A DNA stretch of 64,000 bases, taken from Bradyrhizobium erythrophlei. Its GTDB lineage: Bacteria; Pseudomonadota; Alphaproteobacteria; Rhizobiales; Xanthobacteraceae. The stretch is from positions 6,650,501 through 6,714,500 of the forward strand of contig NZ_LT670849.1 of NCBI RefSeq assembly GCF_900142985.1, in the 5' to 3' direction. Below are positions 47,977 to 53,681 of the stretch, piece after piece. The translations under genes and the position numbers were made by a program. Position 1 is the first letter of the stretch; the number at the start of each line of letters is the position of its first letter. The notes beneath the pieces are model-generated. The model searched no databases. It saw nothing but the letters and a program-made list of their open reading frames with translations, and was not told the origin of the DNA.

Positions 47977-48558
47977 TTATGGGACCACGTCGAGCTTGAC
48001 CTTTGCGGTGCCGCTTCCAACCATTCCTAGCGCATTGGCCGCGGAGTAAGAGACGTCGACGACGCGTCCGGCCACGTACGGACCGCGGTCGTTGACCCGC
48101 ACCGTCACGGATCGCCCCGTCGATACGTTGGTGACCCGCAAGCGGGTGCCGAACGGCAAGGTCGGGTGAGCGGCGGTCAAATCGTGCGTATTGAACTTTT
48201 CGCCGCTCGCGGTCTGTTGCCCTTCTGTGTAGAAGCTCGCAATTCCCTGCGACGCGGTCTGGGTCGGGCTCGCATTGTGGTGCCGCGCGAACGGGGTGTG
48301 CGTTCTCGCTGTGGCGACGTGCCTGTCGGGGGAGAAGAACGCCGTTCGATCGTGTTGCCACGACGCCTGCCGGCTTTGACCGCTAAACCCGGAAGTCCGA
48401 ACTGCGTTGGACTGTGCGCAGGCGGCAAGCGAAGCAGCCCCGAGAACGGCGACCAGCGACTGAAAGACCTTTCGGACGCGCGTGGAGGAGACCGGCGCGT
48501 CCGGAGGATGATTGGCTTCGACAGCGACGTCCGAATTCTCGGCGAGAATGGAAGACAT
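47977..48558 (-). CDS. rlpA: RlpA-like septal ring lipoprotein
   Basis: 193 residues. After a 30-residue N-terminus, VFQSLVAVLGAASLAACAQ carries a lipobox (Cys about 52). The C-terminal double-psi beta-barrel (DPBB) domain shows GIASFYTEGQQTASGEKFN, HPTLPFGTRLRVTNVSTGRS and VRVNDRGPYVAGRVVDVSY (about 105-190), with the catalytic-type His-Pro and Asp. No SPOR domain, unlike E. coli RlpA. Such proteins cleave peptide-free glycan at the septum. It lies head to head with the LexA-box/IS1595 region. Confidence 0.9.
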   Translation of the reverse strand: MSSILAENSDVAVEANHPPDAPVSSTRVRKVFQSLVAVLGAASLAACAQSNAVRTSGFSGQSRQASWQHDRTAFFSPDRHVATARTHTPFARHHNASPTQTASQGIASFYTEGQQTASGEKFNTHDLTAAHPTLPFGTRLRVTNVSTGRSVTVRVNDRGPYVAGRVVDVSYSAANALGMVGSGTAKVKLDVVP

Positions 48559-48762
48559 GCTGAGTCTCCAACTTCCGCCCCCGGCCTGAGCCCGGACCGC
48601 AATGAGGGCAGAACGGTGGCTCGACACGGTCCGGAGCGTTATCTACCCGGCGATTTCCCCTATGGTGTGGCCATTGCACCACAAATTGCCTTAGCGATGC
48701 CGCCCTTGAGGCCCTAACGACCTGTGCCTGCTCGCGAAATACCGCGCTTTACCCCGCATAAT

Positions 48763-48777
48763 GTTCCGGTTATGTTC
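48763..48777 (+). promoter_or_regulatory. Putative LexA box upstream of the tandem ATPase genes
   Basis: GTTC-CGGTTAT-GTTC, a full match to the alphaproteobacterial LexA box GTTC-N7-GTTC. It differs from the ssb box (reverse complement) at only two positions. Before the IS1595 insertion it would have lain about 40 bases upstream of the first ATPase start; today the distance is over 2.4 kb. It could alternatively serve rlpA, about 205 bases away on the other strand. Confidence 0.6.
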
Positions 48778-48803
48778 CATACACGCCGGGGGGGATTATA
48801 TAC

Positions 48804-49013
48804 TTGACACCACACGCCCCCACATGTAGTTCCGCGACTGCGGAAGGCGAAAAGCCTGATGCTGGCGCGCCCGAGATTGAAGTGACCCCGGCTATGATCG
48901 AGGCTGGGCTTAGTGAAATAGAACCATTCGATTTGCAGGAGGCGTATGAAAGCCAGATCGCCTGCATTGATCTCATTTCAAGAGTGTATCGGGCGATGCG
49001 TCGATCTCAGTGA
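48804..49013 (+). CDS. Transposon passenger: small hypothetical protein
   Basis: 69 residues if the TTG at 48804 inside the left terminal repeat is the start. The conserved-looking core is EIEVTPAMIEAGLSEIEPFD followed by a helix YESQIACIDLISRVYRAMRR. Similar short VTPxMIEAG proteins are common in rhizobia, without known role. The start is uncertain (an ATG at 48894 would cut the core motif). Its last 41 bases overlap the end of the opposite 186-residue gene. Confidence 0.5.
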   Translation: MTPHAPTCSSATAEGEKPDAGAPEIEVTPAMIEAGLSEIEPFDLQEAYESQIACIDLISRVYRAMRRSQ

Positions 49014-49533
49014 GGAGAAGCAGAAGCATCTCTTTCATTTTTGTTATTTTCTCTACTATGAGATACATCCGGCTGGACGGAAACGTCTCGCCCGTGACCT
49101 GATCCGGTTTTGATTTAGCTCGCAGAGACATCGCCAGTGGCGTTCCATCTGGTTCTATTCGTCCCCATGCGCCATGGACGATGAAGTTACGATCGTCCCT
49201 GAGCGAATCAACAGCATCCAATACGAGCAATAGCGCCTCAAGTTTGTCGTCATTTGCCAAATGACGTGGGGCGATAATGCGCAAAAGGCTTATCTTAGTT
49301 GTTGCGTCGTCTCGACCAGTTATGGCGCGGCCATCTTCGAAACTTAGGTTCAGAAAACGCCAAATAACGTCATTCAAAACGTTTTCGAGCCGGCTCCATT
49401 CGATGGTGACGCGGCCAACTAGTCTCTCATGCTGCATACTAACGCCGAACACTGGCCTATGGTCGGGTCGCAACTCCTTGAACGGAGGTTTCGGCGGTAT
49501 GAATTTCTTTCGTTTCGGTTTATCCTCAGACAT
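48973..49533 (-). CDS. Transposon passenger: hypothetical protein with HEPN-like R-x4-H motif
   Basis: 186 residues. A basic N-terminus (SEDKPKRKKFIPPKPPFKEL) precedes a helical domain: HERLVGRVTIEWSRLENVLN, ISLLRIIAPRHLANDDKLEA and ALLLVLDAVDSLRDDRNFIV, ending in RNFIVHGAWG. The R-N-F-I-V-H spacing equals the R-x4-H motif of HEPN domains, many of which are RNases in toxin or defence systems. The rest of the fold was not confirmed. Its start codon shares CATG with the start of the plus-strand 54-aa frame, so the two genes diverge from the same point. Confidence 0.6.
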   Translation of the reverse strand: MSEDKPKRKKFIPPKPPFKELRPDHRPVFGVSMQHERLVGRVTIEWSRLENVLNDVIWRFLNLSFEDGRAITGRDDATTKISLLRIIAPRHLANDDKLEALLLVLDAVDSLRDDRNFIVHGAWGRIEPDGTPLAMSLRAKSKPDQVTGETFPSSRMYLIVEKITKMKEMLLLLLTEIDASPDTLLK

Positions 49534-49696
49534 GCCCAACGATCCCGATCAATACGACGAGAAGGAAGCCAAAAAGCGGTTTGAGGCAGCACTACGCGCT
49601 GGCCTAAAGACGCCTCACAAGCCGCTAAAGGAAAAGCCTAAGATTAGCCAAAAGAAGAAGATGGAACGGGACCGCGCAAAACGAGATGATCGCTAA
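49532..49696 (+). CDS. Transposon passenger: small basic hypothetical protein
   Basis: 54 residues: an acidic helix (MPNDPDQYDEKEAKKRFEAA) and a Lys/Pro-rich tail with LKTPHKPLKEKPKISQ and KKKMERDRAKRDDR. Similar short proteins (helix plus TPPKP-like tail) are frequent in Bradyrhizobium and are sometimes seen next to toxin-like genes. The start is uncertain because the frame is open upstream. Its start overlaps the divergent 186-aa gene, and its end overlaps the 118-aa gene by four bases. Confidence 0.5.
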   Translation: MPNDPDQYDEKEAKKRFEAALRAGLKTPHKPLKEKPKISQKKKMERDRAKRDDR

Positions 49697-50049
49697 TTTT
49701 TTGGACCTGACCGTAGCGGGCGAATTGACGCCGGGATATCAATGTCTGGACTGTCTACGAACTCGTAAGAGGATGATTGTGGGTCTACCGTTCGCATCTC
49801 CAAGAGCGCTCTGGGTACTGGACCGTTTAGAATATATTCCGGGAAGCCCTGTTTCGATGCTTCCGGAACGTATTGATGCTGTCGATTATCGAACCGAATT
49901 ATTCGGGCTGGTCTGGAGACTTTGTCTTTTGGCAGTTCTAGCCAATGTGGAACAAGCCATAGCTTTCCGTCGTGCTTTAGAACGTCGATTGAAAACATAT
50001 TTCCGTCTGTGTCGTTTCCCACGAGTGCTTGGTAAATTCGATCAGTCAT
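49693..50049 (-). CDS. Transposon passenger: hypothetical protein, 118 aa
   Basis: MTDRIYQALVGNDTDGNMFS begins a compact beta-rich protein with KLWLVPHWLELPKDKVSRPA and FPEYILNGPVPRALLEMRTV. AAGGGGAGAG lies just before the ATG. The opposite-strand frame at 49686-50051 is rejected as less protein-like. No family is recognised. It could be an accessory or cargo protein of the element. Confidence 0.6.
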   Translation of the reverse strand: MTDRIYQALVGNDTDGNMFSIDVLKHDGKLWLVPHWLELPKDKVSRPARIIRFDNRQHQYVPEASKQGFPEYILNGPVPRALLEMRTVDPQSSSYEFVDSPDIDIPASIRPLRSGPKN

Positions 50050-50170
50050 AAACTCTCCCCTTGGTTGCATTTAGGGAAGCTAGCGCGTCCGCCAGTATTT
50101 GACGAATCTTGGTTTTGACTTTTTCAGCTTTGACCGCCAGCGCAGGAAGCGCCGCGCCTTCCGTTTAAAG

Positions 50171-51085
50171 TCAGGCTTTGTGAGGTTGACGGTACGTCAG
50201 ACGTTTGCCAGCAGCACCCTTGATGGCAAGGTCTGATCGTTCCCCATCGTTGACGCCCAACGCGACACGGTGCGAGTAACGGAAATCAAATTCTGAGAGA
50301 TAGCGGTGAAGGTGCTTCTCGGAGCAGTGCTGATAGATGCCCTTCATGCCGCGTTTGAAGATTGAGTAGTAGCCCTCAACAGTATTGGTGGTCACATCCC
50401 CGCGCGCGTATTCCTCGCGGCCATGATTGACGGTCTCATGGTCTACGCCGAGATCGCGGGCGATCACCTTGTAGGACGGCATTTCGTCAGTATGCAGGCG
50501 GCTTTCACGGTCGAGATTGGCGCTGATGATTGAGCCGATATCAGCAACCGAAACGCTATCGACATGGAAGCTACGGGCAGAACCGCCGCGTTCAACGAGC
50601 GTCACGACAATATTCTGAAAACCACGGCGATGCTTCGGAGCGCCGTCCTGCCGTCCGATATAGGTTTCGTCAGACTCTACGACCTTGCCAGAACCGCCCA
50701 TAGGCGGCAGCAAGCCGCCAGAGCGCATGGCCTCACGGATACGATGGGCAAGGAACCACGCGGTCTTGTAGGTCACGCCAAGGGTACGGTGCAGCTGATG
50801 GGCGGAAACGCCTTTCTTGCTGGACGCCATCAGGAAGAACGCCTGTAGCCAGACGTTGAGCTTGATGTGGCTGGACTCCATGACGCTCTTGGTCGTGACG
50901 GAGAAGTCCTTGCGGCATTCCTTGATGCGGCAGCGATAGACGCCGGGCTTCTTGGTCGCGAATGACTCGCTGACCGTCCCACAATGCGGACAAACGCGCT
51001 CGCTGCCCCAGCGGAGACCTTCAAGGTACTCGCGGGCTGCTTCCGGGCTCTGGAAGTGCGGGGCGTTGAACATGGATTTGGACAT
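50171..51085 (-). CDS. IS1595-family transposase
   Basis: 304 residues. The N-terminal zinc ribbon (CPHCG...C..CRKDFSVTTKSV, about 33-65) is typical of the ISPna2/ISNwi1-like branch. A helical region follows (HQLHRTLGVTYKTAWFLAHR), then the DDE-type domain: VVESDETYIGRQ with the first Asp, LHTDEMPSYKVIARDLG with the second, and VTTNTVEGYYSIFKRGMKG with the Asn-Glu region. It moves the element by cut-and-paste. It is intact in length. Promoter probably lies in the right terminal repeat. Confidence 0.93.
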   Translation of the reverse strand: MSKSMFNAPHFQSPEAAREYLEGLRWGSERVCPHCGTVSESFATKKPGVYRCRIKECRKDFSVTTKSVMESSHIKLNVWLQAFFLMASSKKGVSAHQLHRTLGVTYKTAWFLAHRIREAMRSGGLLPPMGGSGKVVESDETYIGRQDGAPKHRRGFQNIVVTLVERGGSARSFHVDSVSVADIGSIISANLDRESRLHTDEMPSYKVIARDLGVDHETVNHGREEYARGDVTTNTVEGYYSIFKRGMKGIYQHCSEKHLHRYLSEFDFRYSHRVALGVNDGERSDLAIKGAAGKRLTYRQPHKA

Positions 51086-51190
51086 GGGGACCGATCCGGG
51101 TGTTTTGATGGCCTTAGTCTACCCATGGTATTTGTGGTGTCAAGTATATAATCCCCCACGCCGGGCGTGTCAAACGGCGTGAGGCAGAGC

Positions 51191-51976
51191 ATGGGTTCAC
51201 GAGGCAAACGCGACATCAATCTGCCGGCGCCCTACCTCAAGCGGATCTGGCTCGATCCGGAGCGCATTCCCGATCGCGACGCCTATCCGTTCTGCCTGCC
51301 GTTTCTGCACGACGATTTCTCGCTGACCTTCGATCGCGCCATCACGATCATCGCCGGCGAAAATGGCGCCGGCAAATCGACGCTGCTGGAGGGACTGGCC
51401 GTCATGGCTGGCTTCGATGAAGCCGGTGGCGGGAAGGGCTACCGCACAGTCGATCATTCGCAAGCCGTGGAAGAGGGCGGCGGAGAATTGACAGTAGCGC
51501 TACGCGCAAGCTGGGTGCCAAAAGTCAGCTACGGCTGGTTTTTCCGCGCGGAAACCTTTTTCTCGGTCGCGAGATATCTGGACGCAGTCGGGAGTACGTC
51601 GGCAGATTTCCTGTCCTATTCGCACGGTGAGGGGTTCCTTCGCTTCTTCGAGGAGCGCTGCCAGCGGCAGGGCATCTTCATCTTCGACGAGCCGGAGTCG
51701 GCGCTGTCGCCCACGCGCCAAATGGAATTTCTGAAGCTGCTTTATCGCATGGACAAATCGCAGCGCTGCCAGGTGGTCATGGCGACGCATTCGCCGGTCC
51801 TGATGGCCTATCCCAACGCGACGCTGCTGGAATTCACCAAATACGGACTAGAGCCGACCACCGTCGAGCAGACCGATCACTACAAGGCGATGCAGGAGTT
51901 CTTCTACGATCCGCGGGGGTTTGTGGAAGCGGCGATTGAGGAGGTCGACCTCGAGGAACGAGAGGGCGACGCTTAG
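51191..51976 (+). CDS. RecF/SMC-like predicted ATPase (COG3910 type), copy 1
   Basis: 261 residues. GRIDINLPAPYLKRI-like N-terminus (RDINLPAPYLKRIWLDPERI), Walker A in IIAGENGAGKSTLLEGLAVM (about 53-72), Walker B in GIFIFDEPESALSPTRQ (about 172-188) and the switch His in MATHSPVLMAYPNATL. This is the ABC-type ATPase pattern of COG3910 predicted ATPases, related to RecF/SMC heads but without coiled coil. An acidic tail VDLEEREGDA distinguishes it from copy 2. Its own upstream region, including a LexA box, was separated from it by the IS1595 element. Copy 2 begins 35 bases downstream. Confidence 0.85.
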   Translation: MGSRGKRDINLPAPYLKRIWLDPERIPDRDAYPFCLPFLHDDFSLTFDRAITIIAGENGAGKSTLLEGLAVMAGFDEAGGGKGYRTVDHSQAVEEGGGELTVALRASWVPKVSYGWFFRAETFFSVARYLDAVGSTSADFLSYSHGEGFLRFFEERCQRQGIFIFDEPESALSPTRQMEFLKLLYRMDKSQRCQVVMATHSPVLMAYPNATLLEFTKYGLEPTTVEQTDHYKAMQEFFYDPRGFVEAAIEEVDLEEREGDA

Positions 51977-52011
51977 ATACATTGTCCTTTATACGCAGCG
52001 CGAGATAGCAC

Positions 52012-52785
52012 ATGAATTCACGAGCAAAACGCGACATCAACCTGCCGGCGCCGTACCTCAAGCGGATATGGCTCGATCCGGAGCGCATTCCCGATCCCGA
52101 GGCCTATCCGTTCTGCCTACCGCTCCTGCATGAGAATTTCTCGCTGACCTTCGATCGCGCCATCACGATCATTGTTGGCGAAAACGGCACCGGGAAATCG
52201 ACGCTGCTGGAAGGCATCGGCGTGCTCGCCGGCTATGACGAAGCTGGCGGCGGCAAGGGCTACGCGTCGGTCGATCACTCCGATGCGCTGGAGAAGATGG
52301 GCGGACATTTGTCGAAAGCGCTGCGTGCAAGCTGGCTGCCCAAGATCACCAATGGCTGGTTCTTCCGCGCCGAGAGCTTCTTCTCGGTCGCGCGCTATCT
52401 CGATCGGGCGGCCCTGGACGATCCGTTTGGTCCGCCGCCGCCCGACTTCCTGTCTCACTCCCATGGCGAAGGCTTCTTGCGCTTCTTCGAGGAGCGCTGC
52501 CAGCGCCAGGGCATCTTCATCTTCGACGAACCGGAATCCGCCTTGTCCCCCGCGCGTCAGATCGAATTCCTGAAGCTGATGCGGCGCATGGACGACAGCC
52601 GCCGCTGCCAGGTGATCATGGCAACGCATTCGCCGTTGCTGATGGCGTACCCCAACGCGACGCTGCTACAGTTCACCAAATACGGTTTGGAGCCGACGAC
52701 CCTCGAACAGACCGATCATTACAAGGCGATGCAGGAGTTCTTCTACGATCCAAGAGGATTTGTGGAAGCGGCGATTGAGGAGTGA
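52012..52785 (+). CDS. RecF/SMC-like predicted ATPase (COG3910 type), copy 2
   Basis: 257 residues, a close paralogue of the preceding gene from the first residues on (RDINLPAPYLKRIWLDPERI) with the same Walker A (IIVGENGTGKSTLLEGIGVL), Walker B (FIFDEPESALSPARQ) and switch His. They differ mainly in a loop near residues 135-150 (RAALDDPFGPPPPDFLSHSH here) and at the end, where this copy stops after AAIEE. The 35-base spacer with no promoter-like sequence suggests one transcript. Biological role unknown. Confidence 0.85.
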   Translation: MNSRAKRDINLPAPYLKRIWLDPERIPDPEAYPFCLPLLHENFSLTFDRAITIIVGENGTGKSTLLEGIGVLAGYDEAGGGKGYASVDHSDALEKMGGHLSKALRASWLPKITNGWFFRAESFFSVARYLDRAALDDPFGPPPPDFLSHSHGEGFLRFFEERCQRQGIFIFDEPESALSPARQIEFLKLMRRMDDSRRCQVIMATHSPLLMAYPNATLLQFTKYGLEPTTLEQTDHYKAMQEFFYDPRGFVEAAIEE

Positions 52786-52861: not shown

Positions 52862-53491
52862 CTACGTCTCGCGCTTTCGATGCGGATCGTACTTTGAGAG
52901 CACGTCCTTGAGGTAATCCCGGCTTTTCCATTCGGGGGCCGGCGGCTCGTAGCCGGGACGTGGGACAAACTGGTTCGGTGGTACCGAAGCGGAAGCACCC
53001 ATCAAGTCCGGAACGTAGCGCGGGCAGTTCGGAAAGATCTCGCATGTGACGCGCACGACCACTTTCGCTCCATGATGCCGGCTGCGTGTCTCCGCGTCGT
53101 CGTGGATCGTTGCCTTGCCCCGGATGCGGGTGCGGAACGTCTTGCCGTCGAAGCGCACGAACAACAATCCGACATTCGAATTGCGATGAATATTGCCGAG
53201 CGTGCGGTACATGTTGTTGCCGTCATACTCGGGGTATTCAATCGTGTCGGGCCCGGTAATCTTGACGAAGCCGGGATCGCCTGAACGCATGGAGCAATCG
53301 ACATTGTCCTGATAGCTCGTGGCGATAAAAAAGAACCGCGCTTCCTCGATGAGGGTGCGGTCCTGTTCCCAGAATTCGAAGTGGAGGCGATGCTTCTCGA
53401 GACCGTCGGCGACACGGCGGCCGTCGAAGCGGTCCTGCAGCTCGCGCATGCCGCCATGGTAGAAGGGAGCGCGTTCGATCGGTGTGGTCAT
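52862..53491 (-). CDS. Pyridoxamine 5'-phosphate oxidase-family flavin-binding protein
   Basis: 209 residues with the split-barrel FMN-binding fold: TLIEEARFFFIATSYQDNVD, CSMRSGDPGFVKITGPDTIE (about 58-77), the GNNMYRTLGNIHRNSNVGLL strand set, and a C-terminal basic tail. Such proteins bind FMN, heme or F420 and reduce or sequester small molecules. The ATG at 53491 is chosen because the fold starts near it; the frame is open 12 codons further. The gene stands between ATPase copy 2 and the broken third copy. Confidence 0.85.
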   Translation of the reverse strand: MTTPIERAPFYHGGMRELQDRFDGRRVADGLEKHRLHFEFWEQDRTLIEEARFFFIATSYQDNVDCSMRSGDPGFVKITGPDTIEYPEYDGNNMYRTLGNIHRNSNVGLLFVRFDGKTFRTRIRGKATIHDDAETRSRHHGAKVVVRVTCEIFPNCPRYVPDLMGASASVPPNQFVPRPGYEPPAPEWKSRDYLKDVLSKYDPHRKRET

Positions 53492-53582
53492 GGGAGCCTC
53501 GGCGGACTGCTTGCGGCAGATCGCCAATTGATAGCAGACCGCCGCGTGCTGCGCGATGGCCGCATGCGCATTAGGATGGGAT

Positions 53583-53681
53583 CTGGAGTCCGAGACCGCA
53601 GAGCAGACGGATCACTACAAGGCGATGCGTGAGTTCTTCGACGATCCCAGGGGATTTGTGGAAGCCGCGACTGAGGAGTGA
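53583..53681 (+). pseudogene. Third ATPase copy, 3' remnant
   Basis: Only the last 33 codons remain, reading LESETAEQTDHYKAMREFFD then DPRGFVEAATEE and TGA. This matches the ends of both intact ATPase copies (EQTDHYKAMQEFFYDPRGFV, AAIEE) and shares the copy-2 style ending. It is followed by the same palindromic repeat as copy 2. No start codon or Walker motif is left, so it is a remnant of a former duplication. Confidence 0.85.

Follow-up and report, generated by a model that had tools for sequence, protein, structure and literature searches.

The stretch of DNA analysed here, called the window, covers 64,000 nucleotides (positions 6650501–6714500) of the 7.5-Mb single-contig genome of Bradyrhizobium erythrophlei. 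It contains a box of the type GTTC-N7-GTTC, GTTCCGGTTATGTTC, at 48763–48777 (plus strand), followed after 13 bases by a mobile element of the IS1595 family and, beyond the element, by two tandem genes for ABC-type ATPases. ATPase 1 (51191–51976, plus strand) is a single-domain protein of 261 amino acids of the AAA_21/AAA_15 type; ATPase 2 (52012–52785, plus strand) is a tandem copy of 257 amino acids, 82% identical to the first, and has no box of its own. We estimate, with a probability of about 0.82, that the ATPase gene ancestrally had a promoter with this box as its LexA operator and that the insertion parted this promoter from the gene pair.

The element occupies 48791–51156 (approx. 2.4 kb, no strand assigned). 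Its inverted ends are perfect over 25 base pairs (bp) and it is flanked by direct repeats of CACGCCGGG, the left copy at 48782–48790 and the right copy at 51157–51165 (both plus strand). Runs of G and C leave the boundaries uncertain by ±1 base; in a related copy from another genome (L319), GAATA precedes GGGGATT, which supports an end starting with GGGG and makes 48791–51156 with a 9-bp repeat the simplest reading. The uninterrupted target, CACGCCGGGCGTG (48782–48790 joined with 51166–51169), is a near-palindrome. The element codes for a transposase of 304 amino acids (50171–51085), which matches NF033547 (196.8 bits, cut-off 75), PF12762 and PF12760, and it carries two passenger open reading frames (ORFs) of 188 amino acids (48973–49539) and 125 amino acids (49693–50070), for which no family was found. 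All three genes lie on the minus strand, opposite to the ATPase pair.

Transposase type, short terminal inverted repeats and target duplication all place the element in the IS1595 family. It departs from that family in its two passenger ORFs without a known family, its length of approximately 2.4 kb and its 9-base duplication, the family duplication being 8 bases. No other full-length copy was found in the genome. Genus-wide searches, in which two candidates per genome were scored, detected element matches (E ≤ 1e-20) in 45 of the 257 genomes searched, this one included; among the matches listed, those outside the present genome cover the element only partially. In another lineage, a related IS1595-type transposase, complete or partial, lies upstream of the box at the same ATPase locus, with box and gene unparted (L050, upstream of 3369; G193 contig 31, 2360–3084).

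When the flanks are rejoined by coordinates, the ATPase start codon lies 53 bases from the start of the box and 38 from its end. An earlier note on this DNA, made from the sequence alone, had placed the box 13 bases before the element and about 40 bases before the ATG of the joined leader, and had found 13 of its 15 positions identical to the box of the ssb gene; recalculation agrees with these values. Sequence and comparison with relatives together define a LexA-type operator, ATGTTC-CGGTTA-TGTTC, at 48761–48777 (core 48763–48777). The ancestral promoter would consist of a −35-like CTTTAC (48747–48752) and a −10-like TATGTT within the operator (48771–48776), all on the plus strand.

The loose motif by itself is not rare. 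The window contains five GTTC-N7-GTTC sites, against 2.23 expected, and 7 of 100 shuffled sequences reach five; genome-wide there are 212 sites and 216 of the reversed pattern. The window has two matches to the stricter form (T/A)TGTTC-N6-TGTTC, the ATPase-side box and the ssb box, where 0.07 would be expected.

The evidence for an operator comes mainly from the relatives. The comparison used 80 named loci with ATPase relatives, the best 80 of 434 (by label 77 Bradyrhizobium, the others Bradyrhizobiaceae, Hyphomicrobiales and Frankia). A forward GTTC-N7-GTTC box lies 36–85 bases before the ATG of the orthologous ATPase gene in 54 of them, whereas 0.18 would be expected from local density (200 shuffles gave 0.18 on average and 2 at most). 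Eight other tetramers gave no hit in the same test, and no box in reverse orientation was found within 200 bases of the ATG in the 80 loci. Mean identity among the 54 loci is 85% for the box, 30% for the preceding 60 bases and 30% for the following 20 bases; the operator is thus conserved across species more than its flanks. Exact boxes are also present in two further genome samples (18 of the 25 loci with usable upstream DNA, and 18 of 29), which overlap each other and the named set; the upstream DNA of L030 and L036 was unusable in the 25-locus sample. The fetched locus most similar to ATPase 1 in DNA sequence (L221, 82% identity over one gene) has GTTCCTGTTACGTTC at −56. Where both tandem ATPases are matched (eight loci), the box precedes the first gene in five. 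A box before the second tandem gene was also considered and was found in none of the seven loci with a second gene recognized by the script.

The leaders of the box-bearing relatives follow two layouts. In short-leader relatives, 30 of 36 loci have the triplet CTT at a constant position ahead of the box (−16), against none of 18 long-leader loci and a background of 0.016 per position, and TATG or TACG occurs within the box in 33 of the 36. In half of the long-leader relatives (9 of 18), TTGA immediately follows the box on its 3′ side. The leader in the window has the short-leader layout, and both its CTT and its TATG are conserved there. In the two layouts, the box overlaps or abuts the likely core promoter, as expected for a repressor site.

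The identity of the putative repressor is indicated by genes of the SOS response. All 30 genomes examined for lexA, recA and ssb have a GTTC-N7-GTTC box in the 300 bases upstream of each of these genes. A box in the orientation of the gene also stands within 250 bases of uvrA at all 55 loci counted; of the 70 loci with uvrA, 15 were excluded because the start or 200 upstream bases were missing. The gene uvrA, convergent with the ATPase gene as displayed, is present in 70 of the 80 loci, and ssb in 12, the fetched flank often stopping short of it. Both are classical SOS genes.

In published work, GTTC-N7-GTTC is given for Alphaproteobacteria (PMC8565304) and (T/A)TGTTC(N6)TGTTC is the experimentally defined LexA consensus of Caulobacter (PMC13384398). 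The window box and the ssb box fit the latter exactly; the uvrA box does not. Genome-wide, this consensus has 13 matches and its reversed control only one; the matches include recA, ssb, a TIGR03915 DNA-repair gene and a PA0069-family radical SAM gene. The ATPase promoter thus resembles the LexA (SOS) regulon of Alphaproteobacteria in its half-sites, their spacing, the predicted overlap with the core promoter and the company of uvrA and ssb. It differs in that boxless ATPase orthologues exist; the ATPase is also not named in the portions of the cited LexA literature that were available.

Several observations weigh against a LexA operator at this place. Of the 80 named loci, 24 have no box and two have one with a mismatch, and the box is absent in 11 of the 29 loci of the second further sample. 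Loci with and without a box cluster on the tree (10 changes, against a shuffled mean of 22.9 over 81 rows; L072, with a frame of 529 amino acids, was excluded), so that SOS control of the ATPase gene is not universal. The full Caulobacter consensus is found in only 13 of the 80 loci, and at least three of its 13 genomic matches (L298, L301 and L302) fall within longer reading frames. In the window box itself, the G at the sixth position is rare, recurring in one of the 54 boxes of relatives. A matrix built from lexA, recA, ssb and uvrA boxes gives the window box a middling 16.6 bits, below the relatives' mean of 19.2 (range 14.8–22.4); of the 212 genomic GTTC-N7-GTTC sites 100 were listed, and 11 of these score at least as high. 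The listed boxes of lexA, recA and ssb run opposite to their gene, those of ATPase and uvrA in the same direction. Finally, an empty site with the same junction of rlpA, box and ATPase was not found among the relatives.

The boxless loci were at first taken to have a wholly different leader, which proved too simple. A motif resembling ATCTAGGAT is present approximately 68 bases before the ATG in 20 of the 24 boxless orthologues (e.g. L043, L047, L062 and L069), and an ATCT(A/G)GG(A/G)T-like motif also occurs in box-bearing loci, in six of the 18 long-leader ones, closer to the ATG, and in two of the 36 short-leader ones. Since boxless and long-leader loci have this motif in common, the former may be long-leader loci that have lost the box. 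The motif may be a trace of promoter turnover at the ATPase gene.

Taken together, the anatomy of the element, the target duplication and the box and promoter elements conserved among relatives are direct observations, and on the basis of these sequence comparisons it is well supported that the ATPase pair stood under a LexA-type promoter before the insertion. LexA as the binding protein, induction by DNA damage and loss of regulation in the present strain are inferences. The interpretation of the earlier note is supported to this extent: comparison with orthologues and with SOS genes bears out the LexA-type promoter before insertion, and the box that it expected directly before the ATPase in relatives without the element is there in most, though not all, of the named loci, the strict empty site being the missing piece.

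In the proposed mechanism, LexA bound to the operator would cover the −10 hexamer TATGTT (48771–48776), with the −35 hexamer CTTTAC upstream, and would be released upon DNA damage. Transcription would then start near 48783 and continue through both ATPase genes. The IS1595-family element would have inserted a few bases downstream of this start, thereby parting the entire promoter from the genes: the −35, the −10 and the operator would have remained on the left side of the insertion, the coding pair on the right side. In the present-day strain, operator and promoter are not adjacent to the ATPase gene, the 2.4-kb element intervening. The pair would be cut off from its SOS promoter unless it is reached by read-through, and read-through RNA would have to cross 2.4 kb against three oppositely oriented genes.

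The separated promoter may itself still be active and fire into the element, in which case DNA damage would induce an antisense transcript of its transposase and passenger genes. This is possible but on balance doubtful: nothing of the promoter is missing on the left side of the insertion, and the transposase and both passenger genes are encoded on the other strand, but Rho or terminators may end such an RNA early.

A promoter swap, with constitutive transcription of the ATPase pair now starting from an outward promoter in the right inverted end, appears unlikely. A perfect TATAAT directed towards the ATPases is present in that end (51147–51152, plus strand), and the intact ATPase frames with their invariant residues would fit continued use, or equally a recent insertion. 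However, the hexamer has no recognizable −35 at 16–18 bases, which leaves a weak case for the new promoter that the earlier note had offered as an alternative. A consensus scan detected only an inward site, TTGACA-16-TAGACT (51116–51143, minus strand), probably that of the transposase, and such sites are no commoner than in shuffled sequences.

It is improbable that a regulator other than LexA, with a site similar to the LexA box, has the conserved motif as its operator. The spacer of the ATPase box (CTGTTAT type) and its orientation differ partly from the lexA, recA and ssb boxes, but both half-sites, their spacing of 7 bases and a T or C ahead of the second GTTC recur in the uvrA, recA, lexA and ssb boxes, the uvrA box shares the orientation of the ATPase box, and the classical SOS genes uvrA and ssb are neighbours.

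On the side of the element that carries the box, the closest intact gene is the divergent neighbour rlpA (47977–48558, minus strand), which starts 205 bases from the box. The closest rlpA relative among those examined (L243, 74%) has an upstream GTTC-N7-GTTC, GTTCAGCGGCGGTTC. That the box serves rlpA, its nearness to the ATPase being fortuitous, is nevertheless very improbable: 27 of the 29 rlpA relatives examined (fetched loci of 97 matching genomes) have no box within approximately 400 bases upstream, the two boxes found have a spacer unlike that of the window box, with that of L243 opposite in orientation relative to rlpA, and rlpA has no match at E ≤ 1e-10 in any of the 80 ATPase loci, whereas the box stays with the ATPase. 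A box serving only rlpA, which the earlier note named as evidence against its proposal, is thus not what the relatives indicate.

Both ATPase frames are intact and contain the residues that are invariant among 15 aligned relatives. The match to the ABC-type ATPase fold spans most of the domain. The description of the proteins as RecF/SMC-like in the earlier note is too narrow, the model fitting ABC-type ATPases generally. Both proteins missed the curated cut-offs for RecF (35.6 and 33.9 bits against 172) and for PtuA, the Septu/retron effector (34.1 and 34.8 bits against 500); the PADLOC, RecF and PtuA labels were dropped as weak profile matches only. A first structure model, based on 32 close sequences, was poor (predicted local distance difference test (pLDDT) score of 60) and was discarded. 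The pair shares Walker A/B and the H-loop with the AAA_21/AAA_15 ABC-type ATPases, which include PtuA, AriA and the OLD family, with weak profile matches. Unlike these, its proteins have approximately 250 amino acids and one domain, and no nuclease part was found. They are most likely damage-response members of the ABC-type ATPases that act without a transporter partner.

The pair is matched in about 219 of 265 genomes of the genus at E below 1e-60 (manual count), and metagenome data contain proteins with 84–89% identity to ATPase 1. A literature search listed no study on the Bradyrhizobium SOS regulon or on this ATPase; the 2004 comparison of LexA regulons by Erill and others, cited in PMC1839093, or other papers might list the gene. 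The conserved operator gives this unnamed ATPase family a testable role, since induction by DNA damage is predicted in many Bradyrhizobium species, whereas the boxless lineages and the strain with the insertion, two natural controls of different kind, are predicted to show none. The locus would be a clean natural case of an insertion that splits a whole operator–promoter block off its operon. A broader scenario is decidedly speculative: the single-domain ATPase, widespread but as yet unstudied, would be a regular Bradyrhizobium SOS gene in a damage cluster with uvrA and ssb, acting in repair or phage defence, while in the present strain its SOS promoter would now yield damage-induced antisense RNA to the transposase, with the ATPases on another promoter or silenced.

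Of a third ATPase copy, only a remnant of the C-terminal end is left (53577–53681, plus strand; 74% identical over 35 residues). This remnant, with a PNPOx-like gene (52862–53527, other strand) between it and the pair, is a sign of repeated tandem duplication and decay. The ATPase of L102, labelled Frankia sp. RB7, lies in the Bradyrhizobium branch and close to uvrA; this record is apparently mislabelled or contaminated.

Among the more distant relatives, a box is present at L279 and at L274, where a Bradyrhizobium-like tandem lies in a genome binned elsewhere; the other starts displayed have none, save one near-box (L281/L292). L274, L291 and L293 belong to a genome binned in another family, where Bradyrhizobium-like ATPase copies or pieces stand in a row, one of them with a box, as a result of either transfer or a binning error. 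L279, whose protein has an 80% match to one named Pacificispira, carries GTTCTGTTATAGTTC at −79; in its family the gene is present in two of 14 genomes, and L294, the other of the two, lacks a box close to the gene start.

Strict LexA-type sites also lie beside small ORFs in the B. erythrophlei genome, at L299 and L300 (about position 1501 of each). The ORF at L300 (70 amino acids) has no Pfam or NCBIfam match, and an ORF of 94 amino acids adjoins the site at L299. The small ORFs at L299 and L300 are candidates for undescribed small SOS proteins.

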